Source of the DNA: Tritonibacter multivorans
GTDB lineage: Bacteria > Pseudomonadota > Alphaproteobacteria > Rhodobacterales > Rhodobacteraceae
Assembly: GCF_001458415.1 (NCBI RefSeq)
Contig: NZ_CYSD01000037.1
Span: forward strand, 2,501 to 66,500
Direction of reading: 5' to 3'
Length of the DNA stretch: 64,000 bases
Shown: piece after piece, positions 1-2,872 of the stretch
Layout of the letters: each line of letters begins with the position of its first letter
How positions within the stretch are numbered: the first letter of the stretch is position 1
Program-made: the position numbers and the translations under genes
Notes under the pieces: generated by a model
What the model saw: the letters and a program-made list of their open reading frames with translations, nothing else
Database searches by the model: none
Told to the model about the DNA's origin: nothing

Positions 1-7
1 CAAGTTG
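1..7 (-). rRNA. rrs: 5' end of 16S rRNA (rest of gene is left of the window)
   Basis: Read on the minus strand the window ends in CAACTTG. This is the 5' terminus expected for Rhodobacteraceae 16S rRNA, whose next bases would be AGAGTTTGATCC. Upstream sequence supports this: a boxA antiterminator, a leader of the Rhodobacteraceae type and a strong promoter all point the same way. Only seven bases are visible, so the call rests on context and on remembered family sequence. Confidence 0.65.
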
Positions 8-311
8 AAATGCTCTTACAAGCATATCCTTGACGTTCGAACCTCTGCACATTTTTGAATGTCCTACCGCTTTCGCCACTTGAGGACGGGCCTCGCATAG
101 CACGGCTTCGAACCCGGCTAGGAACTCGAAACGAACATTCATATTTCTCTGTCTGTTTGTGCTTGGTTTCAAAAGAAACCGAAGCCGAACAAGACAGTGA
201 AGCTGACACTCTATCATCGAAACCCTAAGGCCTCTAAGAGCGCGATATGTACAGACGTTGATCCATCGAAATGAACCAAACCGCCCACATATCTCTTCAG
301 TCATCCAACAA

Positions 312-323
312 TGTCAAAGAGCA
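312..323 (-). promoter_or_regulatory. boxA antitermination element of the rRNA leader
   Basis: On the minus strand the sequence is TGCTCTTTGACA, which matches the bacterial boxA consensus TGCTCTTTAACA at 11 of 12 positions. boxA is the NusB/S10 binding site that makes rRNA transcription resistant to Rho termination. It sits about 300 bases before the 16S 5' end and downstream of the predicted promoter, the expected place. Confidence 0.8.
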
Positions 324-409
324 ACACCTTCAACGCCGACCTCCAGAGGTCAAAAACAGGACCGTAACGCCAATCTCTCAGCGCACCGCCTGCCATACAT
401 CAAAGATGC

Positions 410-487
410 CCCAGTCTCTCCTGAGCGTCTGCAGTCTTTCCTGCCGTCACGATCGTCTTTCCGACCCGTCATCACCGTCTCTCCGAT
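410..487 (-). repeat. array of four hairpins with identical GARAGA loops in the rRNA leader
   Basis: In the transcript direction four short stems follow each other: ATCG-GAGAGA-CGGT, GGTCG-GAAAGA-CGATC, GCAG-GAAAGA-CTGC and CTCAG-GAGAGA-CTGGG. The loops are spaced 22, 21 and 20 bases apart. Stem sequences differ but pairing is kept (with G-U pairs), while the loop hexamer GARAGA is fixed. I know of no named element matching this; it may be a protein- or RNA-binding platform acting on nascent pre-rRNA. Function is unknown. Confidence 0.6.
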
Positions 488-557
488 GTGTCCGCCTTGC
501 GGCCAGTGCAGCGTCGCCGCCGCGCCCCGTAGCGCCTCAGCGCCGCCGGTGAAGGGG

Positions 558-586
558 GTTCTAAGGTTATACCCCAATAGCCGCAA
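558..586 (-). promoter_or_regulatory. rRNA operon promoter
   Basis: On the minus strand TTGCGG (586-581) and TAGAAC (563-558) are separated by 17 bases. The sequence after the -10 is CCCCCTTCACCGG, nearly the same as that after the tRNA-Val promoter in this window. Upstream, 600-690 is strikingly A/T-rich with runs of A and T, as expected of an UP element or Fis-type activation region. The start should be near 551. Assignment is by eye. Confidence 0.6.
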
Positions 587-727
587 GCGGTTTCTGCACA
601 AAAACGCAAACTTTCTTCCAAAAACCTATAAAGACAAACAAAAACAACAGCTTACATCGATGATTTTTTGATCTTTTTGATTTCAGACGCTCAAAATCCA
701 GTCCGAACAGCCAATTCAGGCGCGCGA

Positions 728-1364: not shown

Positions 1365-2267
1365 TTAGAAGTGTTTCGCCAGATCCATCCCCTCGTAGAG
1401 GGATGCCACCTCGGCCTCATAGCCATTGAACATCAGGGTCGGCTGGCGTTTGGCAAAGAGCCCGCCACCAATCTTGCGTTCAGAGGCCTGGCTCCAGCGG
1501 GGATGGTTCACGTTAGGGTTCACATTGGAATAGAACCCGTATTCCCTCGCATTGGCCATATTCCAGCTGGTGGGCGGCTCCTGATCGGTCAGCGTGATCT
1601 TCACCACCGATTTGATCGACTTGAACCCGTATTTCCACGGCACCACCAGTCGCAGGGGCGCGCCGTTCTGATTGGGCAGCGGTTTGCCAAAGATCCCGGT
1701 GGCCATAATCGTCAGCGGGTTCATCGCCTCGTCCAGACGCAGCCCTTCGCGGTAGGGCCAGTCAATCACAGGATAACGCACGCCGGGCATCTCATCGGGG
1801 CGCAGCAGCGTTTCAAAAGCCACGTATTTCGCACCGTCCTGCACGCCTGCAAGGGCCAGCAGATCCGCCAGTTCGAACCCCTGCCACGGGATCACCATCG
1901 ACCAGGCCTCGACACAGCGGAAGCGGTAGATGCGCTCCTCAAGCGTCATCGCCTCGAGGATCTGTTCAAACCCATAGGAACCGGGATTGTCGACCAGCCC
2001 GTCGATCTCCACCGACCAGGGCGAGGTGGTCATTGCCCCGGCATAGTAAGACGGATCTTCCTTGCCGGTGCCGAATTCGTAGAAATTGCAGTAGCTGGTG
2101 ACCTCTTCCCAGGTGTTGGTCGCAAGCCCCTCTTCGGCCACAGCGCCCCCGGCGATGGAGCCCAGCCCAGCGCCTGCCATGCCAGCCAGCAGCTTGCGGC
2201 GGTTCCAGAACAGGGCTTCGGGGGTTACATCGGCAGCAGTAAGGTCATTGGTCCAGCGCTTGGCCAT
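1365..2267 (-). CDS. msrP: MsrP, periplasmic molybdoenzyme of methionine sulfoxide reductase
   Basis: This catalytic subunit reduces protein-bound methionine sulfoxide in the periplasm using a molybdopterin cofactor. The 300-residue product begins with a Tat signal (NRRKLLAGMAGAGL, about residues 22-35) and has the sulfite-oxidase-type core. Cys118 in YRFRCVEAW is the expected Mo ligand. Length and the coupled msrQ one base downstream match the family exactly. MsrQ is the electron donor. About 100 bases separate it from the HxlR gene upstream on the same strand, so it probably has its own promoter. Confidence 0.95.
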   Translation of the reverse strand: MAKRWTNDLTAADVTPEALFWNRRKLLAGMAGAGLGSIAGGAVAEEGLATNTWEEVTSYCNFYEFGTGKEDPSYYAGAMTTSPWSVEIDGLVDNPGSYGFEQILEAMTLEERIYRFRCVEAWSMVIPWQGFELADLLALAGVQDGAKYVAFETLLRPDEMPGVRYPVIDWPYREGLRLDEAMNPLTIMATGIFGKPLPNQNGAPLRLVVPWKYGFKSIKSVVKITLTDQEPPTSWNMANAREYGFYSNVNPNVNHPRWSQASERKIGGGLFAKRQPTLMFNGYEAEVASLYEGMDLAKHF

Positions 2268-2371
2268 TGGGGAAAACTCCTATTGGTCTTGCACTGAACC
2301 TAGTTCGCGCGCGTTAACAGGAAAACCAAAGCTTTATAACAATGCCGTGCCGGACCTGTAACATGGCGCGC

Positions 2372-2872
2372 TCAGTTCGCGGGGGTGCGGGTCAACTTCA
2401 CCTGCGTCAGGTCGGCGCGTTCGCCGGTTTCCGCATCCACCAGCATCAGCTTCAACCGCCGCCGTGTGGTGGCATCCACCGGGTGAATTGGGTCGAAATC
2501 TTCGGGAAAGTATTTGTTCCCCCACCCAAGAAGCGCCAGGAACGACAACCCCAGCCCTTCGCCCGCCGTGGACAGGTAATAGGCCTTGCGGGTGCGGCTG
2601 CCTGCCTCGCGGTAATCGCGGGTCTCAACCAGACCGGCCTCGATCAGCGCAGACAGCCGTGTGGACAGCACGGATTTCGGGATCTTCAGCGCCTCGCGCA
2701 TTTCTTCAAAGCGGTGCGCGCCGTAAAACAGCTGCCGCAGGATCAGCAGCATCCAGCGGTCGCCCAGAAGCCGCGCCGCCCGCGCCAGACCGCAATCGGC
2801 CACAGGGAAATCGCTGTCGGCAATAACGGTTTCAGGAACAGAGGGCGACGCATGTGATTCTGAGTTTGACAT
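2372..2872 (-). CDS. HxlR-family transcriptional regulator
   Basis: This is a winged-helix DNA-binding protein of 166 residues. The core (CGLARAARLLGDRWMLLILR, then HRFEEMREAL and SVLSTRLSALIEAGLV) is the HxlR signature: a helix carrying GDRW, then a recognition helix and a beta wing ending in Y.LT-like YYLSTAG. HxlR proteins often sense electrophiles or redox state and control a neighbouring gene. I use the ATG at 2872 (MSNSESHAS); upstream extension would cover the divergent intergenic region. The divergent gene at 2943 is the obvious candidate target. Confidence 0.88.
   Translation of the reverse strand: MSNSESHASPSVPETVIADSDFPVADCGLARAARLLGDRWMLLILRQLFYGAHRFEEMREALKIPKSVLSTRLSALIEAGLVETRDYREAGSRTRKAYYLSTAGEGLGLSFLALLGWGNKYFPEDFDPIHPVDATTRRRLKLMLVDAETGERADLTQVKLTRTPAN

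Follow-up and report, generated by a model that had tools for sequence, protein, structure and literature searches.

Extra-stable CUUCGG and GNRA hairpins occur in phage T4 mRNAs and in rRNA, and the CsrB/RsmZ sponge RNAs carry many hairpins with one loop motif, in variable number and on free stems; the CsrA core motif is A-N-GGA. The boxB hairpins of lambdoid nut sites and of rrn leaders are short stems with loops of more than four bases, located in a nascent leader near boxA; those known have penta- or CUAACC loops and occur in single copy. Among phage boxB loops, in the part of PMC12550061 that deals with them, are penta- and hexaloops of GNRA-like character to which N peptides bind. In E. 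coli, the boxB-containing part of the leader could be deleted with little or no effect, and ~30% activity remained when boxA was deleted, in an orthogonal translation system, in the passages of PMC10250234 on these deletions. The relevant excerpts of PMC3369931 and PMC12691694, respectively, state that ANTAR hexaloops must begin with A and have G as their fourth base and that LoaP binds a UNCG-tetraloop hairpin.

Here we describe a tandem hairpin array at the start of the window, by which we mean the whole 64,000-nt stretch of Tritonibacter multivorans DNA that was analysed. As with lambdoid boxB, a short stem and boxA are seen in the same leader, and the GARAGA loops may, to judge by their sequence, be GNRA-like as boxB loops are; unlike boxB, the array repeats its GARAGA hexaloop in tandem, each time behind a GACR linker, and its unit also occurs inside tmRNA. 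ANTAR target RNAs likewise consist of small tandem hairpins with conserved hexaloops and a linker of a few nucleotides, but we rejected this class because the array loops have G at position 1 and A at position 4 in 60 of 60 units. The LoaP dfn hairpin is also a small leader hairpin, one that loads an antitermination factor; it too was rejected, the array loops being GNNAGA hexaloops and not UNCG tetraloops. CsrB/RsmZ RNAs differ in having an A-N-GGA loop core and a separate small RNA gene, whereas the array has GARAGA loops within an rRNA leader, and a CsrA sponge was discarded given that the base two positions before GGA (column 6 of alignment A1, 60 units) is C, U or G and never A. The extra-stable T4 and rRNA hairpins resemble the array as generic mini-hairpins reused across unrelated RNAs, but they have other loops, no conserved GAC linker and no tandem arrays.

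A search of the whole window with Rfam release 15 at the gathering cut-off returned one tRNA only, leaving the array unmatched, and a search of window positions 1–700 at E values up to 5 returned two weak matches, none on the array. Literature searches, in a library that lacks most subscription journals, listed no paper on this element. Both results agree with the earlier note, made from the sequence, which knew of no named element of this kind. No site complementary to the octamer, GTCT(C/T/A)TCC, was found within one mismatch in the 16S rRNA of one operon (L008).

Four hairpins lie between an inferred rRNA promoter and boxA

The start of the window encodes an rRNA leader on the minus strand, with the array placed between an inferred promoter and the boxA of the 16S leader. 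The putative rrn promoter (558–586, minus strand) was recognized by eye as TTGCGG (586–581) and TAGAAC (563–558) separated by 17 nt; TTGCGG and TARAWA-like hexamers recur among Rhodobacteraceae family leaders, again by eye, and a scan with the sigma-70 consensus gave no promoter above threshold. From this promoter, RNA synthesis would start near window position 550. The transcript then contains, from 5′ to 3′ and all on the minus strand, the hairpin GCGC-TGAG-GCGC (532–543), a hairpin with the GNRA tetraloop GCGA (508–523) directly 5′ of the array, the four GARAGA hairpins, and the element TGCTCTTTGAC (313–323), also present in related leaders, which we take to be boxA. Of the 184 hairpins in 95 leaders, 39 have a TGAG loop, more than any other, and GNRA hairpins are enriched in this segment, as described below. 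In a further leader copy of the same genome (L040, on contig C17), boxA is followed by the 16S start, and the leader thus has boxA upstream of 16S as rrn antitermination leaders do. Beside the rrn operon, at 728–2267 on the minus strand, lie open reading frames with a ferric-reductase-like membrane domain and a molybdopterin oxidoreductase domain, which are presumably msrQ and msrP.

The array spans 410–488 plus the GAC linkers on the minus strand, and consists of four hairpins with stems of 4–5 bp and loops of GAGAGA or GAAAGA that follow one another at 20–22 nt from loop to loop. Hairpin 1 (CATCG-GAGAGA-CGGTG, 473–488) is preceded by GACA and matched by our covariance model R1 at 470–491 with 26.5 bits; hairpin 2 (GGTCG-GAAAGA-CGATC, 451–466) is preceded by GACG and matched at 448–469, also with 26.5 bits; hairpin 3 (GCAG-GAAAGA-CTGC, 431–444), with a stem of 4 bp and GACG before it, has a weak match at 429–445 with 14.5 bits; and hairpin 4 (CTCAG-GAGAGA-CTGGG, 410–425), again preceded by GACG, is matched at 407–428 with 31.4 bits. 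The GGARAGAC octamers lie at 484–477 (GAGAGA), 462–455 (GAAAGA), 441–434 (GAAAGA) and 421–414 (GAGAGA), with spacings of 22, 21 and 20 nt, and T makes up 10 of the 87 nt of the array. The minimum-free-energy (MFE) structure of the 580-nt leader contains all four GARAGA hairpins (z of −3.70); that of an isolated 116-nt piece contains hairpins 3 and 4 only, and its centroid hairpins 2, 3 and 4.

The stems covary around a near-invariant loop

Related leaders yielded 107 units of the form GACR, stem, GARAGA, stem, of which 63 were distinct. The four pairs beneath the closing G-C form in 60, 61, 62 and 57 of the 63, compared with 37.5, 51.8, 30.7 and 30.4 when the arms were shuffled, and pair positions farther out stayed within the shuffle range save by chance. 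In alignment A1, made of 60 distinct units after leaving out one with an N, one with a GACAGA loop and the units of L128, 97.7% of 300 cells (five pairs in 60 units) are paired compared with 68.7% in shuffles, and 79 cells have changed on both sides compared with 23.9; neither value was reached in any of 500 shuffles. Sliding the partner as a control lowered pairing in A1 to 20.7–47.3%. Across these 60 units, four base pairs covary, the closing pair is always G-C and every loop fits GNNAGA. Across the 63 units, the loop is GAGAGA in 37, GAAAGA in 20, GATAGA in 3, GGAAGA in 2 and GACAGA in 1, and adjacent loops lie 20–22 nt apart in 68 of 71 cases.

These results bear out, for the window and for related rrn leaders, the earlier description of four stems with a fixed loop at near-constant spacing, as well as the proposal, drawn from compensating differences between the stems, that pairing rather than text is kept. 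They add three features to it: a GACR linker precedes each stem, the closing pair is invariably G-C, and arrays differ in the number of units. A protein-coding repeat in the leader was also considered and rejected: most of the 20–22-nt spacings are not divisible by three, and the number of units varies; the open reading frames that cross the array come from a mechanical listing.

In rRNA leaders the array is lineage-specific

All five leader copies found in the window's genome carry four units. R1 gave 18 matches in this genome at E values up to 10, and the 15 with E < 0.05 all fall within the five leader copies, hairpin 3 being too weak to be listed; the remaining three (E of 0.9–9) have no GGARAGAC octamer in the stretches examined. 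This confinement of the unit to the leaders argues against the titration of a regulator, one of the roles suggested earlier.

Within the genus, a leader match was found in 9 of 18 genomes, and all seven leaders that were long enough carry 2–5 units, with two that were ended by the contig end (L009 and L010) left out. Matches were obtained for 169 of the 394 family genomes, and one leader was taken from each of 110 of these; 106 of the leaders were long enough, and 6 of them carry 2–4 units and 100 carry none. Outside the family count, one genome has a leader with a single unit and no boxA match (L017, 28.1 bits), and a leader ended by the contig end (L029) has three units. Across 100 loci, mostly array-free leaders, R1 gave two matches at E values up to 1, that in L017 and one in L143 (18.5 bits, E of 0.033). 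Leaders of relatives without the loops, which the earlier note had named as evidence that would tell against it, are the rule in the family and absent among the genus leaders long enough to judge. Because 100 of 106 family leaders lack the array and 7 of 7 genus leaders have it, the array is lineage-specific and is not needed for rRNA synthesis in the family.

A strict three-octamer pattern matched 5 of 198 family genomes, one match not being a leader; the match in G239, one of these five genomes, is a 16-nt-spaced repeat in a locus without boxA and was not used. Exact three- and two-unit patterns, run over 385 Alphaproteobacteria and 398 Pseudomonadota genomes, matched only the window's genome and one other of its family (G132), always in rrn leaders. 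In the leader loci that were not cut short and were found without requiring boxA (L027, L028 and L032–L040), boxA lies 3′ of the array. Phyla beyond Pseudomonadota were reached only by a boxA-anchored pattern, which cannot reveal arrays away from boxA and which gave 41 stretches in the genome_contigs collection, 38 of them with an array. The array-bearing stretches are titled Leisingera, Phaeobacter, Pseudophaeobacter, Epibacterium, Tritonibacter, Roseobacter sp., uncultured or other relatives, and Nocardioides marinus (four); three Bacillus stretches have no hairpin array and were set aside. The four leaders under the title Nocardioides marinus DP1N28-1 (L196, L198, L203 and L208) are of the roseobacter type, and the label of that record is probably wrong.

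Arrays have grown in tandem. Five leaders of Pseudophaeobacter EL27 contain 6 (L169), 5 (L175), 3 (L187), 5 (L192) and 9 (L200) octamers, a repeat that varies in number within the rrn operons of one strain.

Leaders without octamers are enriched, in the same segment, in hairpins with GNRA tetraloops, with 41 such hairpins compared with 7.6 in base shuffles (maximum 16 in 200 shuffles), present in 32 of 68 leaders compared with 7.25 after shuffling. The 68 were taken from 118 anchored leaders after leaving out those with no TCACCG-like landmark, a short segment or an octamer. For example, L070 reads GACACACCG-GAGA-CGG, and an array unit of L163 reads GACACACCG-GAGAGA-CGG. GARAGA begins with G and ends with A, as GNRA loops do, and this enrichment suggests that it may be a GNRA-like loop enlarged by two bases. 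Between the inferred RNA start and a point ~95 nt short of the anchor, Rhodobacteraceae rrn leaders are also poor in U, with or without an array, with a mean of 8.0% T (92 leaders, range 0–35%) compared with 29.2% downstream of boxA, measured over at most 300 nt starting at the anchor. U is absent from the consensus of both the linker (GACR) and the loop (GARAGA).

The same unit recurs in viral contigs

A three-octamer pattern matched 57 loci in IMG/VR, and a control with the reversed 8-mer matched 29; two or more 4-bp hairpins that differ in their arms were present in 18 of the 57 loci but in only 1 of the 29. Many of the viral matches looked by eye like coding repeats, spaced by multiples of 18 nt, and only the 18 pass the hairpin test. 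The search made no demand for GAC, which 21 of 30 distinct paired viral units nevertheless have at position −8 precisely, and R1, trained on leader units only, gave 48 matches at E values up to 1 in the 57 loci, the best with 27.2 bits. A second pattern that included the linker gave 83 stretches. The 121 loci scanned from both viral sets held 61 arrays, 44 of them distinct, of which 28 lie before genes of one scaffold-like family, 4 in tmRNA loci and 12 elsewhere.

Rfam placed tmRNA genes at 6 of 17 viral loci examined (L242, L243, L269, L273, L306 and L317), with the array inside the gene in all six. ARAGORN found the tag part in four of these tmRNA loci, and in each of them the array follows on its 3′ side, presumably where the later pseudoknots would be expected. 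These loci match RF00023 as entire tmRNAs and not as the GARAGA unit, and across 12 viral loci no Rfam family fell on the unit. Arrays also lie beside tRNA-like genes, as judged by Rfam and ARAGORN in L293 and by eye in L286, L316 and L257.

The scaffold-like family corresponds to phrog_13908 (E of 1.7e-76, unknown function), and a relative also matched a head scaffolding family (E of 0.00049). In L388, the scaffold gene is located between a portal and peptidase-like pair and a major head protein. The peptidase-like open reading frame of this locus (2015–2488, plus strand) extends through the hairpins to 2488, and in L290, L300, L314 and other loci an open frame also runs through the array (longest 294–358 amino acids). 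Translation across the arrays is possible, but coding is an unlikely reason for them given their mixed spacing.

We also selected viral loci by the scaffold protein, fetching relatives with an alignment of six scaffold-like proteins and retaining the best 80 of 141. Among 58 distinct upstream regions, each 120 nt or longer, 13 contain at least two octamers; all 13 were already known by contig name from the patterns, and six were the queries, so this count is free of any demand on linker or spacing but does not represent new arrays. At these loci GAC stands at −8 in 32 of 40 distinct units, in keeping with a linker that is conserved across leader units and viral arrays. Pairs 1–3 form in 37, 39 and 32 of the 40 units compared with null values of 16.4, 24.2 and 20.0, and pair 4 has no support (13 of 40 compared with 10.3), which gives a viral stem of 4 bp as against 5 in the leaders. 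Leader covariation, the viral hairpin test and pairing at the protein-picked loci together rule out chance hairpins.

In 27 of the 58 regions, the place of the array is taken by a different hairpin (TCGTCCAC...ACGGACAG and the like), and no region has both this hairpin and GARAGA units. This second hairpin, TCGYCCAC(N)nACGGRCAG and the like, stands one to three times just 5′ of the scaffold gene (L388–L466 and L285), and it is possibly an alternative element with the same job.

A reusable RNA module is the tentatively favoured reading

Our preferred explanation, to which we give a probability of roughly 0.4, is that the array is a reusable, self-folding and cis-acting RNA module that insulates or shields untranslated RNA; we place it slightly ahead of a docking site for a protein. 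Each module would comprise the GACR linker, a 4–5-bp stem of free sequence and a G-C-closed purine hexaloop that probably has a GNRA-like fold enlarged by two bases. In the rrn operons of roseobacters, the module would occupy the variable segment of the nascent leader from the RNA start to boxA, fold on leaving RNA polymerase and act in cis, with an effect that adds up with the number of copies. The effect would be to keep the untranslated stretch compact, low in unpaired pyrimidines and insulated from its neighbours, shielding it from nuclease attack, from the loading of Rho or from misfolding together with pre-16S RNA. In phages, the module would serve the same general purpose in the leaders of scaffold and capsid genes and in the tmRNA part of the later pseudoknots, the bacterial and viral copies presumably doing the same job.

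Recurrence of the block beside viral capsid genes and inside tmRNAs makes it look like a reusable RNA part, and variable copy number (3, 5, 5, 6 and 9 in one strain, 2–5 in the genus) is as expected of an additive module. The rRNA leader, tmRNA and scaffold-gene leader share no obvious specific ligand, and a structural module fits the reuse in three RNA contexts, the free copy number and the GNRA hairpins in relatives. The covariation around a fixed loop and the low U content of the leader segment also speak for it. A role confined to rRNA, such as in ribosome assembly, which had been proposed earlier, is unlikely to be the whole story since the unit is also present in viral tmRNA genes and capsid-gene leaders. 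Against a purely passive role, the loop stays GNNAGA within arrays and GAC is kept in the linker, which such a role leaves unexplained. Other points against the module are that 100 of 106 family leaders do without it, that the alternative viral hairpin, never found together with the unit, could mean two recognized signals, and that the MFE structure of the isolated leader piece lacks some of the four hairpins.

The constancy of loop and linker is what a boxB-like docking site would predict, with GACR and the GARAGA loop recognized by some widely conserved factor that binds RNA or acts in elongation (putatively NusA, NusG, S1, S4 or RNA polymerase itself); together with boxA, docking would raise the processivity or stability of untranslated transcripts, and tandem copies would add avidity. 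We regard this as the main rival, only slightly less likely than the module. The closing pair is invariant and the loop nearly so despite the free drift of the stems, the linker is kept in leaders and viral arrays alike, boxA lies 3′ of the array in L027, L028 and L032–L040, and the GNRA-like penta- and hexaloops of phage boxB offer a precedent through their binding by N peptides. However, the copies number from 0 to 9 and most relatives have none, the single unit of L017 has no boxA match, tmRNA is to our knowledge not a typical antitermination target, and deletion of the boxB part of the E. coli leader had little effect (PMC10250234, in the passage cited above). A bolder version, in which GACR-stem-GARAGA is a widespread protein-binding signal for one conserved bacterial factor, used by hosts to boost rRNA, borrowed by phages for capsid-gene leaders and tmRNA, and tuned by the number of copies, seems to us unlikely.

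The near-identical units in the Pseudophaeobacter EL27 leaders, the differing copy number between its operons and the absence of the array from most relatives would also suit a selfish or neutral tandem repeat, a hairpin unit multiplied by slippage and tolerated in a permissive leader segment; but diverged units keep their pairing through double changes and keep the loop, and unit and linker recur in viral contigs, making this improbable. Least credible of all is a sponge in which the loops are repeated targets of a small RNA or CsrA-type protein titrated at high rRNA output, for despite the resemblance of tandem single-loop hairpins to CsrB/RsmZ RNAs, the window's genome has no further significant copies, A never stands two bases before GGA in 60 units, and the units occur in unrelated viral RNAs.

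As a structural module or otherwise, the array is an RNA element that covaries strongly, has no Rfam match and belongs to rRNA operons of bacteria common in the sea. If a protein reads the unit, it would represent a new class of boxB-like signals; if none does, a purine-hexaloop mini-hairpin would have been repeatedly chosen as structural filler, which would be useful for RNA design.
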